A stretch of DNA of 41,183 nucleotides from Pseudomonadota bacterium (GTDB lineage Bacteria > Pseudomonadota > Alphaproteobacteria > Puniceispirillales > Marisalimonadaceae), in the NCBI GenBank assembly GCA_028382005.1, contig JAOESH010000016.1:1-41183 (forward strand), in the 5' to 3' direction. Below, piece by piece: positions 2,476 through 25,712 of the stretch; the stretch's first letter is position 1, and each line of letters begins with the position of its first letter. The notes below the pieces were generated by a model. That model was not told the origin of the DNA and did not search any database. It worked only from the letters and a program-made list of their open reading frames with translations. A program made the position numbers and the translations under genes.

Positions 2476-3266
2476 TAAGCTTCTCCACTTTTTAAATTTT
2501 TAAGAAACTTTTTAAACCCAGATTTACCCATCCAAAACTTTACTAAGTTATTTACTCCGTTAGATGTAAGCGTAGCACCTGCTAAAGCATCAATGTGATA
2601 ATCTTTGTTCTTAGAAGTTTTAGCAACCTGTATCATTAAATCACCTTTTTCGTTATTTAACTTTTTACCTTTCCATTGTGCTTTCCATTTTGGATTATCA
2701 ACTTCCGCACCCAATCCTGGTGTTTCGGCATGTTGATAAAATTGAAGACCAAATATATCATTTAAGTTATTTTCTAGAGCGATAAAACCATATAATGTTG
2801 ACCATAAACCATACCCATGTACAGGAAGGATTATCTTATCCAAGGAACCATCATTATTTTTTAACAGATAAATCGTAACAAAATTTGCTCGTCTACCAAT
2901 TGAAGCCGGGTCGTCTTTTAATGCAACACTCAATAAAGGGTCTTGGGCTGCTTTTTTATCATCAAAAATCAATGGGTCAAATTTGTTTGTAAATTTACCA
3001 TTCTCTATATCAACAATCAAAGGCTCAAATGATGAAAAAGTTTCTTGAATATTCACGCCATCATAATATTTTCCAGCAACTTGCAAGATATTTTTTTGCT
3101 TATCAAGGGCTTTATTAACATCTTGCTTTGATTTCAAATTTACAGCTGCAAAAGAGACAACCATAGAACATATAAAACACAAAGTTGTAGCAACGATTAT
3201 TGTTTTTACCATGCCATCAACAGGCATATTTTTAAATTTTACAAATATATTATTTGAATTAGACAT
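2475..3266 (-). CDS. nqrC: Na+-NQR subunit C, covalent FMN carrier
   Basis: NqrC carries a covalently bound FMN in the electron path of Na+-NQR. The 263-residue protein has one N-terminal membrane anchor (about residues 20-42) followed by a periplasmic FMN-binding domain. The flavinylation site is read as [13 protein letters not shown], with the acceptor threonine at about residue 232. The S/T position of the usual flavinylation consensus is Ala here. The ETPGLGAEV segment is a further family signature. It overlaps nqrB by 8 bp. ApbE, needed for FMN attachment, is encoded divergently at 6066. Confidence 0.97.
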
Positions 3267-4467
3267 TAAAAATTGCCCTTCTCTTAATATTAGCCATTAC
3301 AACAAAGTGATCTATCAAAGGTGCAAATATATTCCCAAATAAAATTGCTAACATCATACCCTCAGGAAATGCTGGATTTAAAACTCTTATCATGACAACC
3401 ATAAAACCAATAAGTCCGCCATAAATGTAACGACCTAAATTCGTATGACTACCAGAAACTGGCTCAGTAACCATAAAAACCAAACCAAAGGCGTAACTTC
3501 CAACAACCAAATGCCAGTACCATGGCATACTAAACATCGGATTAGTATCCGATCCAATCCAATTCAAGAAAGACGAGAAAGCTATCATTCCAAATAAACA
3601 ACCTACAATCATTCTATAATTAGCTATTTTAGTTAGCAAAAGAAAACATAAACCAATCGCAATGGCTAATGTAGAAGTTTCTCCAAGAGATCCTTGGATT
3701 GTACCTAAAAAAGCATCTGTCCAAGTTATGCCATAATTGCTTAAGCTTTCATAACCTTCAGAAGCAGATAACCCTAATGAAGTTGCACCTGAAAAGCCGT
3801 CAACGGGGGTCCAAATTGAGTCACCTGACATGTAAGCTGGATAAGCGAAATACAAAAAGGCACGACCTGTTAATGCGGGGTTTAAGAAATTTTTACCTGT
3901 ACCACCAAAAACTTCTTTGGCAACAACAACCCCAAAAGCAATACCTAATGCCACTTGCCAAAGTGGTGTAGAGGCAGGTAAAGTTAGAGCAAATAACATT
4001 GATGATACAAGAAAACCCTCGTTAACTTCGTGACCTCGGACAGTTGCAAATATTACTTCACATAATCCACCAGCTACTAAGGTTGTAATATAAATGGGCA
4101 AAAAATATAATAAGCCGTGAGATACGTTAGAAACTAAACTTGTAGGATCAATACCTAAACCTGTTAATTGTAAAAGATGAATCCTCCAACCCGATATTTC
4201 TTTAATATCTAATGAAGATAAAGCAGAATTTGTTTGAAAACCAGTGTTGTATAATGCCCATAAAACACAAGGAATAGTTGATATAACTACATACGTCATA
4301 ATTCTTTTCATATCAACAAAACTACGAGCATGTGGAGCAGCTTTAGTAACAGTATTACTTGTGAAAAATATTGTTTCTATCATTTCAAAAATTGGATAAT
4401 ATTTTTGGAATTTACCACCTTTTTCAAAATGAGGCTCAATTGAACTGAAATAACTTCGAATTGACAT
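3259..4467 (-). CDS. nqrB: Na+-NQR subunit B, membrane, covalent FMN
   Basis: NqrB is the large membrane subunit of Na+-NQR, holding covalent FMN and riboflavin and central to sodium transport. About 402 residues with roughly ten hydrophobic segments are visible. The flavinylation motif DGFSGATSLG places the FMN threonine at about residue 229. GKNFLNPALTGRAFLYFAYP is a conserved NqrB segment. I chose ATG at 4467 over the in-frame TTG at 4470, because AAGAAGG lies about 7 bases before the ATG and only 4 before the TTG. It starts immediately after the nqrA stop. Confidence 0.97.
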   Translation of the reverse strand: MSIRSYFSSIEPHFEKGGKFQKYYPIFEMIETIFFTSNTVTKAAPHARSFVDMKRIMTYVVISTIPCVLWALYNTGFQTNSALSSLDIKEISGWRIHLLQLTGLGIDPTSLVSNVSHGLLYFLPIYITTLVAGGLCEVIFATVRGHEVNEGFLVSSMLFALTLPASTPLWQVALGIAFGVVVAKEVFGGTGKNFLNPALTGRAFLYFAYPAYMSGDSIWTPVDGFSGATSLGLSASEGYESLSNYGITWTDAFLGTIQGSLGETSTLAIAIGLCFLLLTKIANYRMIVGCLFGMIAFSSFLNWIGSDTNPMFSMPWYWHLVVGSYAFGLVFMVTEPVSGSHTNLGRYIYGGLIGFMVVMIRVLNPAFPEGMMLAILFGNIFAPLIDHFVVMANIKRRAIFNV

Positions 4468-22099: not shown

Positions 22100-22528
22100 T
22101 TACTTTAGAGGAAACGTTGAAGTGGCATGACATAATATATCTTCTTTATTATTTTCTGAGTATACTTTTGTTTCCCCAATAGCAATGGTACTTCCAAACC
22201 TTTGAACCACACTCTCAATAATAAAATAATCACCAAACGCAGGACGAATAAAGTTATTATTTTGTGAAAGTGTACCTCTTTGTGATTTTAAAGATGTATT
22301 CATTGCAATTGACATAGTTGTATCAATAACAGACATAAGAACTTGTCCTGATAGAGCTCCAGTAACGAATTGATATTCTGCTGAGTTATCTAGCCTAGCC
22401 ACTACCCTTCCTTCTTCTATTTCCAAAAAGGATAATTTAAGATGTTTAACATAAGGTGCAAAAATATATTCATAAACTTTTTCTACGTTATCTAAAGTTA
22501 TAGTTGTATTTGGGAGTTTGTTATTCAT
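22100..22528 (-). CDS. PaaI-family hotdog thioesterase
   Basis: This is a small hotdog-fold protein of 142 residues, predicted to hydrolyse acyl-CoA thioesters. Typical PaaI features are the central ALSGQVLMSVIDTTMSIAMN stretch (the Asp of the usual HGG...D active-site region is kept, while HGG itself reads as TGALSG) and the following RPAFGDYFIIESVVQRFG strand. The missing HGG makes the catalytic assignment uncertain. It lies directly upstream of the oxidoreductase gene on the same strand, so the two may be cotranscribed. Confidence 0.75.
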   Translation of the reverse strand: MNNKLPNTTITLDNVEKVYEYIFAPYVKHLKLSFLEIEEGRVVARLDNSAEYQFVTGALSGQVLMSVIDTTMSIAMNTSLKSQRGTLSQNNNFIRPAFGDYFIIESVVQRFGSTIAIGETKVYSENNKEDILCHATSTFPLK

Positions 22529-22768
22529 TATTAATTATAACTAATAAATCACTAAAAGATCAATAAGTAAAATGGTGACACCTAAGAGGTTCTAACTGAT
22601 ATATAATTGTGTCAAATTGTATCTAAGTGAGTCTGACTATTTGTAATAATCAAGTTATATACACTGATATACAAGTAGCAATAGTAGGAAATAATTTTAT
22701 TTAGCACTAGAAATTTTATTCAATACTAAAATATATCCCTATGAATTTTATGACTAAAAACGTCACAA
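22529..22768. other. Intergenic region containing a tRNA-3'-like fragment
   Basis: These 240 bp lie between the thioesterase start and the stop of the coiled-coil protein gene, so they hold the thioesterase promoter and the end of the island-like region. The only clear element is a decayed tRNA 3' end at 22573-22602. To its right, short TATAC-containing repeats (ATATAC around 22655-22670) occur in AT-rich sequence. I see no open reading frame and no convincing terminator hairpin. Confidence 0.5.
22573..22602 (-). repeat. Decayed copy of the tRNA-Glu 3' end (candidate outer att remnant)
   Basis: Read on the plus strand, these 30 bases match the CCA-T-arm end of the intact tRNA-Glu at 25638-25667 at 23 of 30 positions by hand alignment without gaps. 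TGGTGA at the CCA end, CCTA at the acceptor-T-arm junction and TTC-AACT in the T loop are kept; the T-stem no longer pairs fully, so it is not a working tRNA. It has the same orientation as the intact tRNA and lies 3,065 bp beyond its 3' end, where an outer attachment site would lie after integration into the tRNA gene. Confidence 0.6.
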
Positions 22769-24628
22769 TTAATTTAATGCAGCAATATAAGAAAGATCTG
22801 CAATAAATAACTCACCCTCTAGGTTAAGTCCTTTTGTAAGTGGATGTTCTCCAATTTGTTGAGATGCATAAAAAGTTTCGATTTGACCTGGCTTAAAGGC
22901 ACCAACCTCCAATAAAATGCCAGAAGCAACAATGAATTGACCTCTATCAAGCTTAGCTAATTCTCTAAACCTTCTATCCTCATATGGAATAGTGGCTCTC
23001 CACTCTTTAGAGCCTTTTTTTAGCCAACTACTTTTTGTATCTATTTGCCCTGAACCAACAAAACTTTTACAAGGAAGGCTCAAAACCACAGCTGCTGAAC
23101 CATCTTCAATTTGGTCAATTTTAACAACTTTAAAAATCCAATTATTAACCTTTCCACCAGGCAACAAACCATCAAGGTTCTCTTGTCTTTCTTTATGAAC
23201 CATATTGATTTTAATTTCATTTCCTGAAGAATTAGCTTTTACAATATCCCCGAAAAATCTCTTCGTTAATTGACAAAATTGTCTTTGTTGAAGACTAAAG
23301 TCGTACCTATAAGGGATCCATTCTTTAGGAAGATTAATTGTCTTTTTTGATGTTTCTTTAATTTGTTTTTCATTTTCTTTCTTTAAAGAAGCAATTTTTA
23401 ATTCTAGTTGTTGTCTTTTGCCTTCTTCTACTAATCTTTTTTTCTCTTCTTCCTCTAATTTTTTAGCTGCAATTAATTTTTCTTTTTCCTTTTCTTTAGC
23501 AAGTTGCTTTGCTTTTTTAAATGCCTTAAATTCAGCTAACTCTCTTTCTTTTTCTAATTTTTTAGCTTTTTGTTTTGCTAAGCTTAAGGCTTTTTCTTTT
23601 AGTAATTCGCGTTCTTTTTGCAAAGCTAATTCTTTTTTTAATTTTTTTGATTTTTTGTCAGCTTTAAGCTTTGCTACTGCAATTTCTTTTGCTAGTTTTA
23701 GAGCGTTCGCCTCCGCTAACTTTATAGATTTTTCTTGTTTTTTTCTAAGAGATCTTTCTTTTTCTAATTCTAATTGTTTTTGATTGGCTAATTTTAGAGC
23801 CTTCGCCTCAGCTATCTTTATAGATTTTTCTTGTTCTTTTCTAAGAGCTCTTTCTTTGTCTAATTCTAATTGTTTTTGATTAGCTAATTTAATAGATTCT
23901 GTGTCTTTTTTAAATACAACCTTGGATTTTGATTCTAACTGAGCCTTTTTAATCGCAAAGTCAGTTAAAATATCTGTAAGGTGAAATTTAGTTTTTAAAT
24001 TATATCCATTTTGAGAGAATAAATTTATAATTCTGTATTGAGCACTTTCAAATCTTTTAATAATATCCATTGATTTAGATATTTTTGTGACCTCATCATT
24101 TAATTCATTAATTGTTGAATTCCAATATTCCAAACGTAAACTGCAAGTTCTTGAATTCCATCTATTCGATTTAGTTATTTCAACAATCTTTGGTCTATCA
24201 TTTAAATCATTAAAAATTTGTTTTACATTTACTTCACCTATATTTTTCAAAACAGTAAAAAAACTATCTTCATATTTCTTATTTAAACCTTTTTTAAAAC
24301 CGTCTATTCGAAAAATATTTTTTTCTTTATCTTTAAATCCAATTAAGATGTTTAAATTTTTTTTTGTGCTTTTATATGCCCAAAAATAATTAGAATTATA
24401 AAACATAGTAAATGTATCTGTGTAAGTCTTTCCTGATTTATAGGTACCACCCTTTTGTTTGGGGCAAACCAATTTTAAATTTTTTGAGTAAAAATATGGA
24501 TCATCTGGATAAATTGTCCCCAATCTATCACTAAATCCTGTTCCATCTGCATAAACCGAAGTGGTATTTATAGAAAACAAGAATGTAATAACTATTATTA
24601 ATTTAAAAATATTCATTTTCATATTCAT
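22769..24628 (-). CDS. Exported coiled-coil protein of unknown function, C-terminal domain shared with neighbour
   Basis: This 619-residue protein belongs to no family I recognise. A signal peptide (residues 1-27, ending SVYA before DG) leads to an N-terminal domain with Cys55 and Cys162. A highly charged Lys/Glu/Gln/Ala coiled coil spans about 225-425, including a 32-residue tandem repeat at about 247-310. A C-terminal domain follows (about 435-619). That domain is clearly homologous to the whole mature part of the neighbour at 24646: both have QFC-LT, GNEIKIN/KNEIKIN, RQE-LD-L-P-GK--NWI, GSG, W-ATI-Y and YIAA-N, with Cys452 and Cys520 conserved. Probably periplasmic. No Shine-Dalgarno is evident; it starts 17 bp after the paralogue ends. 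Confidence 0.82.
   Translation of the reverse strand: MNMKMNIFKLIIVITFLFSINTTSVYADGTGFSDRLGTIYPDDPYFYSKNLKLVCPKQKGGTYKSGKTYTDTFTMFYNSNYFWAYKSTKKNLNILIGFKDKEKNIFRIDGFKKGLNKKYEDSFFTVLKNIGEVNVKQIFNDLNDRPKIVEITKSNRWNSRTCSLRLEYWNSTINELNDEVTKISKSMDIIKRFESAQYRIINLFSQNGYNLKTKFHLTDILTDFAIKKAQLESKSKVVFKKDTESIKLANQKQLELDKERALRKEQEKSIKIAEAKALKLANQKQLELEKERSLRKKQEKSIKLAEANALKLAKEIAVAKLKADKKSKKLKKELALQKERELLKEKALSLAKQKAKKLEKERELAEFKAFKKAKQLAKEKEKEKLIAAKKLEEEEKKRLVEEGKRQQLELKIASLKKENEKQIKETSKKTINLPKEWIPYRYDFSLQQRQFCQLTKRFFGDIVKANSSGNEIKINMVHKERQENLDGLLPGGKVNNWIFKVVKIDQIEDGSAAVVLSLPCKSFVGSGQIDTKSSWLKKGSKEWRATIPYEDRRFRELAKLDRGQFIVASGILLEVGAFKPGQIETFYASQQIGEHPLTKGLNLEGELFIADLSYIAALN
23691..23882 (-). repeat. 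96-bp in-frame tandem repeat inside the coiled-coil gene
   Basis: Two adjacent 96-bp units (23691-23786 and 23787-23882) encode 32-residue coiled-coil segments that differ at few positions; the start of a third unit is visible from 23883. Each unit encodes a stretch like KQLELEKERSLRKKQEKSIK. The period of 96 keeps the reading frame, so unit number can change without disrupting the protein. The remaining coiled coil (residues about 318-425) looks like older, diverged repeats of similar composition. Confidence 0.85.
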
Positions 24629-24645
24629 GGAAAGAACTGATTTTA

Positions 24646-25287
24646 TTAGTTAGCGGCTGCAATATAAGTTAAAAATGCAAGAAACAATTCATCTCCAGTT
24701 CCATATTTATTATTTTTTAAATTAGATAAATCTTTACTAGTAAGAGGCCTAGAAGCATAATAAGTTTCTCTCTCGTTGGGGATAAATTCATTAAGCTTTA
24801 AAAAAGTTCCAGATATAATAGCAAAATCTCCAGAAGATAGCTTTGATACTTCTCTATATTGCCTACTTTTATATTTAATAGTTGCTCCCCAAGACAATTT
24901 TCCGTCAATTAAAAAACTTCCTGAGCCAATTTGTGAACCACATGACAATTCAAATACAGCGGCTGAATCTCCATCAGTGTTTTCATTATTTGGAGATTTA
25001 ACTTGTTTAATTGAAACCAGCTTTACAATCCAATTTTGATATTTACCCTCAGGCATTAATGCATCAAGATCTTCTTGTCTTTGTTTTTTTACTCTATTAA
25101 TTTTAATTTCATTCTTAGAATTAATGGCATTATTCAAGTCCATTACATAATTATCTGTTAGGTCACAAAATTGCTTTTGTTGAATTGAAATATACTTTTC
25201 AGCATCAGTCCAATTCATGGGTCCTGCATGAACAGTTGAACATCCAAAAAGAATAAAAAAAATAAAGAATCTTAAATTGTAAAACAT
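24646..25287 (-). CDS. Predicted lipoprotein of unknown function, paralogue of the coiled-coil protein C-terminus
   Basis: This is a 213-residue protein with a lipoprotein signal: a hydrophobic stretch to residue 15, then LFGC with lipidated Cys16. The mature domain aligns through its length with residues about 435-619 of the downstream coiled-coil protein. Conserved positions include Cys41 in QFCDLT, KNEIKIN, RQEDLDALMPEGK, NWIVK, Cys116 in LSCGSQIGSG, W-ATIKY, and SGDFAIISG. Two conserved cysteines in an exported domain may form a disulfide. The beta-rich pattern resembles an OB-like fold, a weak inference. AAGGAAAG stands before the ATG. No known family is recognised. Confidence 0.8.
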   Translation of the reverse strand: MFYNLRFFIFFILFGCSTVHAGPMNWTDAEKYISIQQKQFCDLTDNYVMDLNNAINSKNEIKINRVKKQRQEDLDALMPEGKYQNWIVKLVSIKQVKSPNNENTDGDSAAVFELSCGSQIGSGSFLIDGKLSWGATIKYKSRQYREVSKLSSGDFAIISGTFLKLNEFIPNERETYYASRPLTSKDLSNLKNNKYGTGDELFLAFLTYIAAAN

Positions 25288-25425
25288 ATACTTTCCTTTT
25301 TTAATATTAACTCTGAAAATACTAAATAAAATTTCTTAAACAGTTAAAAATTTTACATTTTAAATTATTACTTACTATAAGATCATAAGCAAATAAATTA
25401 TATTGAAAATTTTAAAAAAATAAAT

Positions 25426-25464
25426 TGTTGATCCCTTCTAGATTCTAGTTTGTATTAAGGCCGT
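25426..25464 (-). pseudogene. Decayed tRNA-Glu 3' half
   Basis: Aligned without gaps to the intact tRNA-Glu at 25638-25676, these 39 bases match at 29 positions. The match runs from the CCA end (TGTTGATCCCT versus TGGTGATCCCT) through the T arm (AGATTC) and variable region (GTATT) to the start of the anticodon stem (GCCGT). Beyond that the similarity fades, with only a possible TGTCC-TAA match further on after extra bases. The orientation equals that of the intact gene. The T-stem and CCA are damaged, so it is not a functional tRNA. Confidence 0.75.
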
Positions 25465-25546
25465 ATGATAACATTTTATATTATTCTTATGTCCCTAAAC
25501 ATAAACAAATGAGCCATATCATTAATAAACACTTTGTAATTCAAGA

Positions 25547-25568
25547 AAAACTATAACAAAACTATAAC
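25547..25568. repeat. 11-bp direct tandem repeat
   Basis: AAAACTATAAC occurs twice head to tail, followed by AAGCTATAATAAC as a degenerate third unit. It lies between the decayed and intact tRNA-Glu copies. It could be a recombinase arm-type binding repeat or simple sequence slippage in AT-rich DNA; the sequence does not decide. Confidence 0.6.
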
Positions 25569-25637
25569 AAGCTATAATAACAACTAAAATTACTCTGATA
25601 ACCACTCGTAAGCTATTAATATATATAGGAAATTAAG

Positions 25638-25712
25638 TGGTGATCCCTACGAGATTCGAACTCGTATTGCCGCCGTGAAAGGGCGGTGTCCTAACCGTTA
25701 GACGAAGGGACC
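25638..25712 (-). tRNA. tRNA-Glu (anticodon UUC)
   Basis: Read on the minus strand, the 75 bases fold as a complete cloverleaf. The acceptor GGTCCCT pairs with AGGGATC (one G-U pair). A D arm contains CGTCTAACGGTTAGGACA, and the anticodon stem CCGCC/GGCGG encloses loop CTTTCAC, with anticodon TTC at 25677-25679. The T arm is CGAGTTCGAATCTCG, and CCA is encoded at the 3' end (25638-25640). It lies 36 bp after the recJ stop on the same strand. Two decayed copies of its 3' part lie to its left. Confidence 0.97.

Follow-up and report, generated by a model that had tools for sequence, protein, structure and literature searches.

Introduction

Described systems offer several ways for DNA to settle beside an RNA gene or to move on an enzyme that it does not encode. 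Cis-mobilizable elements (CIMEs) keep attL and attR, have lost the genes for integration and transfer, and accrete in tandem at the end of a target gene (PMC5704250). Tycheposons are tRNA-anchored islands of marine oligotrophs that carry metabolic cargo (PMC10872708). In clusters of attC sites lacking integrases (CALIN) and in miniature inverted-repeat transposable elements (MITEs), the recombination sites are kept and the enzyme is borrowed (PMC11389934). In Dehalococcoides, many islands with changing cargo occupy one RNA gene, ssrA, and only 16 of 31 have an integration module (PMC3146451). Here, we analyse a contig of 41,183 nucleotides (JAOESH010000016.1 of assembly GCA_028382005.1, called the window below) from a SAR116-cluster bacterium with a genome assembly of 1.81 Mb in 65 contigs. 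An initial annotation had proposed that positions 22573-25712, beside the tRNA-Glu gene, are what is left of site-specific integration, possibly repeated. On balance, we lean towards reading this segment as a decayed tandem of integrase-free cargo inserts, framed by phage attachment (att) sites and mobilised by phage integrases.

Results

On the minus strand, on which all features of the segment lie, the gene order is recJ, tRNA-Glu, a near tRNA fragment, a 213-aa gene, a 619-aa gene, a far tRNA fragment, a thioesterase gene (PF03061) and an oxidoreductase gene. The intact tRNA-Glu (TTC; 25638-25712), the sole one found by ARAGORN and Rfam, would be the integration target. The near fragment (25426-25464) is a decayed tRNA-Glu 3′ end of 39 nt that runs from the CCA to the anticodon loop and matches at 29 of 39 positions; it is read as an old attR. 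The far fragment (22573-22602), which matches at 23 of 30 positions (20 of 25 by a stricter count), is read as an older attR. Both are in the orientation of the tRNA and start at the TGG that corresponds to its CCA end. In local alignments, the near fragment scores 28 against a maximum of 23 in 200 shuffles of 22500-25637, and the far fragment scores 25 against a maximum of 17 in 200 shuffles of its 300 b. On the opposite strand, the best control score is 19, a value attained by 20 of 200 shuffles. The shuffles for the tRNA fragments, for the repeat lags and for the 110-b comparison beside the tRNA keep dinucleotides; those for the phage-arm comparisons of flanks keep base composition only. 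The initial annotation had aligned both fragments by hand, had asked for this alignment and had named equal scores in shuffled AT-rich controls as its refutation; the matches are real, and the controls do not equal them. The fragments are imperfect, as they would be if they were chance matches in AT-rich DNA. We rejected this explanation because all 200 shuffles fall below the fragment scores; together with the CCA anchoring and with the phage arms and relatives described below, this leaves it a negligible probability.

The same site was compared among relatives. A recJ search matched 123 of 151 genomes, 43 of them of the same genus or family, and 40 of these 43 recJ-downstream stretches were compared. 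Every one of the 40 has an intact tRNA-Glu 38-89 b past the end of the recJ match, and the DNA beyond it differs. The thioesterase match starts ~250 b after recJ in loci L047, L050, L058 and L062; elsewhere it follows at 0.4, 2 or 8-9.7 kb, is missing before the hydrolase, or is not seen. Copies of the tRNA anchored at its 3′ end occur in six of the 40 loci: L035 (26/27), L036 (24/30), L043 (34/44), L065 (44/44 and 26/27), L070 (27/28) and L071 (49/51). Matches in L036, L039 and L072 that are not 3′-anchored were treated as chance. Nine cargo proteins were compared with Pfam, giving Alpha-E, circularly permuted ATP-grasp, transglutaminase-like and proteasome-like proteins, a Na+/H+ exchanger, an M19 dipeptidase and an alpha/beta hydrolase; two of the nine have no Pfam match. 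The gene content at the tRNA-Glu site thus differs among close SAR116 relatives, with inserts that lack an integrase. These loci mark the site as a hotspot of integration among SAR116 relatives. The recJ-tRNA-Glu comparison proposed by the initial annotation therefore shows varying cargo, and the shuffles, the fresher copies and different cargo of relatives, and the phage attP arms all support its suspicion of repeated integration. As a separate observation, the ATP-grasp gene is split into two open reading frames (ORFs) of 230 and 218 aa in the L035 island of genome G036 (2689-4117), where genome G028 has one ORF of 483 aa.

Temperate marine phages carry attP sites whose core is the 3′ end of this tRNA. 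Searching with 40 nt of the tRNA-Glu 3′ end as a pattern gave three stretches, which belong to two viral contigs. One of these contigs is 34.5 kb long with a terminal overlap of ~300 b, has a PHROG integrase of 382 aa adjoining attP, and encodes a terminase 56% identical to that of HTVC010P-type pelagiphages. A 23-nt 3′-end pattern of the window's tRNA found 16 further viral stretches, and ARAGORN called a tRNA in none of the 16. The integrase of phage L132 was verified by PHROGs; in the other phages an integrase-like start after the core was seen by eye only. When 20 repeat lags were compared past the core, 11 bp came out best in 13 of 15 phages, the exceptions being L141 and L146 (L033 was omitted from the arm and lag comparisons, and L143 from the lag comparison, for too little sequence past the core). 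By eye, different phages have different repeat words, and the two arms of one phage have the same word. Group G16 marine phages, with a mean of 35.5 kb and 35.2% GC, include some with an integrase and an attP matching a SAR116 tRNA (PMC3861242), and are a likely source of such arms.

Two side observations concern these attP sites. The arm words seen by eye across L095, L118-L130 and L131-L146 are GGTGACA, GGTGTAAA, GAGTGCT, GTACCCA, GTACACA, GTAGACA, GTTTGCA and GTTAACA; in most cases the spacing stays at 11 and the two arms of a phage agree in their word, as if attP arms and integrase changed together. In addition, attP lies ≤610 b from a contig end in 7 of 18 viral contigs (L095, L096, L131-L146) against 2.07 expected (P 0.0022), with a limit of 610 b that was set after the positions had been seen; this may be an assembly effect or may reflect a packaging end near attP.

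Arms of this type frame the inserts. The DNA that separates the 619-aa stop codon from the far fragment (22603-22768) resembles the P arm of phage L131, with scores of 79 against a maximum of 49 in 50 shuffles and, in a second comparison, 83 against 46 in 40 shuffles; with the core included, 144 of 223 positions are identical. The P-side flanks of the relatives score higher: 420 for L065 and 400 for L035 (both against L132), 293 for L071 (L095) and 119 for L036 (L136), where the shuffle maxima, the window's included, are 45-60 (40 shuffles each). The 6.2-kb cassette of L035 and L065, described below, and the L071 insert have both arms above shuffles. The homology of L035 with L132 begins close to where the last phage gene ends and covers 263 of 300 columns.

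On the tRNA side of the window, P′-arm-like DNA lies between the tRNA and the near fragment (25465-25637). Comparing its first 110 b with the corresponding DNA in G028 (L065) and in G044 (L043) gives a score of 61 each time, which 0 of 200 shuffles attain in either case. A full-arm alignment with the phage P′ set is not significant (50 against a shuffle maximum of 52), and therefore the evidence used for this side is the L065 and L043 match and an 11-bp repeat. Here a lag of 11 is the best of 20 (score 13; 0 of 100 shuffles), and at 25548-25568 two GTTATAG words are separated by TTTT (GTTATAGTTTTGTTATAGTTT), a pair that occurs once in the window and in none of 100 window shuffles. We take this pair to be integrase arm-type sites. 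It matches 34 viral stretches; in 11 it flanks a tRNA 3′ end on both sides, and in the other 23 it is single or unpaired. By eye, the cores between the viral pairs look like tRNA-Asp and tRNA-Ala.

The cassettes encode no integrase of their own. A six-frame PF00589 search of the window's genome found five integrase-family hits, none on the window's contig, and the same search of eight relatives (G001, G009, G028, G036, G043, G044, G054 and G056; 1 to 9 hits each) found 41, none inside a cassette. The nearest hit on a cassette contig is ~95 kb off, in G036. Runs of the two island proteins (Pfam, PHROGs) and of the nine cargo proteins (Pfam) found no integration or transfer gene, with no search aimed at conjugation genes. 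The integrase search, the relatives' loci and the phage-type arms back the initial annotation's view of a remnant or a left-behind cargo without integrase. A resident helper integrase of another type may exist in the relatives. Apart from this, two integrase-family genes of the window's genome (G000:C21:4787-5248 and G000:C55:6170-6589) stand near tRNA-Arg and tRNA-Leu; the first has an internal stop.

Evidence of movement comes from G028 and G036, two species that share one 98.0%-identical block of 6,219 columns (the 6.2-kb cassette) in a backbone that is 73.6% identical beyond it. The block starts ≤2 bases from the tRNA 3′ end and ends at the last base of the next tRNA copy; its left edge is less sharply judged, because the islands, that of G036 among them, were cut at the tRNA for comparison. 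As the block holds both phage arms and no integrase, the reduced, integrase-free form itself was transferred. Homologous recombination between chromosomes, with the phage arms as old litter, would fit the bacterial cargo and the syntenic locus. On its right, however, the block stops where a tRNA copy ends, and on both sides the two species have different neighbours, which makes this explanation very improbable. The tandem arrangement recurs in G028, where the 6.2-kb block stands behind a second cassette. This one, of 1.3 kb, is 93.3% identical to a cassette of G044, in another genus, with a backbone at 68.6%; the match extends ~25 b past the tRNA copy.

Tandem stacking in G028 and in the window, and arms as close to those of present-day phages as L035 is to L132, would also be expected if the cassettes moved in cis by accretion, as CIMEs do. 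A cassette would then move only when an adjacent phage excises as a composite, from its own attL to the attR of the cassette. No phage-cassette composite was seen, however, and a 6-kb cassette would need to be packaged along with a phage genome of ~34 kb. We give this mode little credence.

The cargo of the window consists of a 619-aa protein (22769-24628) with an apparent signal peptide and a charged, Lys/Glu/Ala-rich middle (by eye), and a 213-aa protein (24646-25287) with a hydrophobic N-terminus and an apparent lipobox (by eye). They have a C-terminal domain of ~190 residues in common (84/197 identical, E 1e-45), and neither matches a Pfam, PADLOC or PHROGs family up to E 0.1, as the initial annotation of two paralogous exported proteins of no recognised family had it. 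The predicted structure of the 213-aa protein, with a mean predicted local distance difference test (pLDDT) of 45, was not used. A profile search of the order found homologues of the 619-aa protein in G043, G056 and G009 (G043 and G056 being of the same family as the window), with 11 matches in 4 of 136 genomes that form six runs; a search of the class (385 genomes) found the family in the window's own genome alone. By these searches, the two exported proteins are members of a small SAR116 family. The occurrence in 4 of 136 and 1 of 385 genomes rules out an ancestral gene pair, and the expectation that would have overturned the initial annotation, both genes in place in all close relatives, failed, one of the few homologues being decayed. 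The conserved part of the gene is its last 450 nt, with 71-80% DNA identity between the window and G043 against 37-65% upstream. The apparent export signals suggest a location in the cell envelope; that the family is a surface protein altering phage entry is a guess.

P-arm-like DNA and then a tRNA fragment come after the last family gene in five of the six runs (the window, G043 contig 29, G056 twice and G009); three of these genomes have this arrangement at tRNA-Glu, the fourth has it at a tRNA-Asp fragment. In G043 contig 29, a 619-aa relative is the sole gene between tRNA-Glu and the 49/51 copy, and is followed by 183 of 191 columns of a phage P arm. The two G056 runs have P-arm scores of 178 and 98 against 45 in shuffles. 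In G009, a family remnant with three stops precedes a P arm (185 against 44, phage L128) and a tRNA-Asp-like fragment, with a flagellin on the same contig. The sixth run, at the end of G043 contig 1, has no P arm after its gene remnant (33 against a shuffle value of 52). The G056 contig and this contig end are assigned to the tRNA-Glu site because both border a 263-aa gene that, by eye, is the second after tRNA-Glu in G040.

Two further details of these loci were recorded. At L093 (G009 contig 32, 2260-2600, minus strand), an 18-nt tRNA-Glu-like fragment stands with the family remnant, the P arm and the tRNA-Asp-like fragment, and the gene beside the remnant is 92% identical to the first cargo of the G001 tRNA-Glu cassette. 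Beyond the 49/51 copy of L071 (G043, ~760-680, minus strand), several TTCCTACGGGA-like repeats stand together with an inverted repeat and resemble, by eye, the DNA after tRNA-Glu in G054.

The position of the family also bears on another explanation, that ordinary phages lost all but their ends and a passenger (moron) gene, leaving inert remains. The family lies where a prophage-end passenger gene would be, and the last codons of a phage mini-ORF stand between family gene and P arm in G043, G056 (twice) and G009. The decay of the window (20/25, 29/39) and of the G009 relative would be natural in dead prophages. The G028/G036 cassette, however, is 98.0% identical across both arms and the gene junctions, and therefore moved after losing, or never having, phage genes; in addition, the family occurs in none of the viral loci compared. 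Dead prophage ends are thus an unlikely account.

Discussion

Our data support a picture that goes beyond the initial annotation: the alignments show frames of the temperate-phage type, and a cassette built in the same way crossed species without an integrase. The tRNA fragments, the integration geometry, the phage-type arms, the lack of integrase and the cross-species transfer are established; action of a phage integrase in trans, packaging and whatever benefit the cargo may bring are inferred. The decayed tandem would have arisen by two integrations into the tRNA-Glu of a SAR116-cluster bacterium, each of which would leave an intact tRNA gene on one side of the insert and its duplicated 3′ end on the other, far side. 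Both inserts would be framed by the attP arms P′ and P of temperate phages, with bacterial cargo in place of phage genes; the far one would carry the 213- and 619-aa proteins, and the near one would be an emptied remnant of ~172 b. A phage with matching arm-type repeats, either infecting the cell or resident in it, would supply the integrase that excises and inserts them, and new cells would be reached inside phage particles. The near-identical insert in two species suggests that such inserts travel on phage-borrowed enzymes. A single aberrant excision would retain just one arm.

Several points weigh against this scenario. In the window, arm alignments are not significant for a P arm before the near fragment or a P′ arm in the far insert; missing arms would be expected of decay and are not proof of it. 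A lag of 11 is the best in only 3 of 40 host tRNA-Glu flanks (39 relatives and the window), namely the window, L056 and L071. On the P side, the segments of L043 and L070 have no match in the phage set, and that of the first L065 copy is marginal (46 against 42). In 34 of 40 loci there is no 3′-anchored fragment, several of them ending at contig ends. Neither of the two phage integrases tried has a close relative in the host genomes searched, and therefore no resident copy of these phages was seen. The cargo is absent from viral contigs in four scans, each with ≤6 short exact peptide patterns, and the 619-aa family matches 0 of 66 viral loci.

A broader form of the borrowed-integrase reading is possible, and we put it forward tentatively. 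The cassettes may be attP-only dependants of temperate marine phages, a counterpart of MITEs, in which bacterial genes sit between P′ and P arms and the repeats are the address for an integrase. The 619-aa family might then be the standing cargo of one branch, because the last gene of five of the six runs abuts P-arm-like DNA. If true, this would provide a route for metabolic genes between species at one site, and the arm repeats would predict which integrase moves which cassette. Cassettes made of cargo and a phage address would escape island finders keyed on integrases.

How do the cassettes compare with known systems? Like defective prophages, they have phage-derived ends. The phage-gene residue seen consists of the mini-ORF codons at the P arm in G043, G056 and G009; the two window proteins have no PHROG match. 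Phage satellites carry their own integrase and regulators, and none was found in the cassettes here. Satellites such as phage-inducible chromosomal islands (PICI), P4-like elements and PICMI likewise would travel with a helper phage (PMC11389934, PMC10803314). G16 comprises phages, not cassettes (PMC3861242). Our survey of the open-access literature, with subscription papers outside its scope, found nothing of this kind, that is, phage-att-framed cassettes without integrase. CALIN and MITEs use integron attC sites or insertion sequence (IS) ends (PMC11389934), where the cassettes have phage attP arms beside a tRNA. The Dehalococcoides islands occupy a transfer-messenger RNA (tmRNA) gene and have the integration module in about half; phage arms do not figure in the abstract of that study (PMC3146451). 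Tycheposons share the tRNA target; they carry a tyrosine recombinase and span 4-200 kb, whereas the cassettes here have none and measure 1.3-6.2 kb (PMC10872708). CIMEs come closest in form: both att sites are retained here, as tRNA and 3′ copy in the window and six relatives, and integration and transfer genes are missing, as judged by PF00589 in the window's genome and eight relatives, conjugation genes not having been a target of the search. An origin from a conjugative or mobilizable element does not fit, the flanks being phage attP arms. CIMEs are decayed integrative and conjugative elements (ICEs) or integrative and mobilizable elements (IMEs) (PMC5704250), whereas the cassettes described here are framed by the attP arms of temperate phages and recur, in their reduced form, nearly identical in two species.

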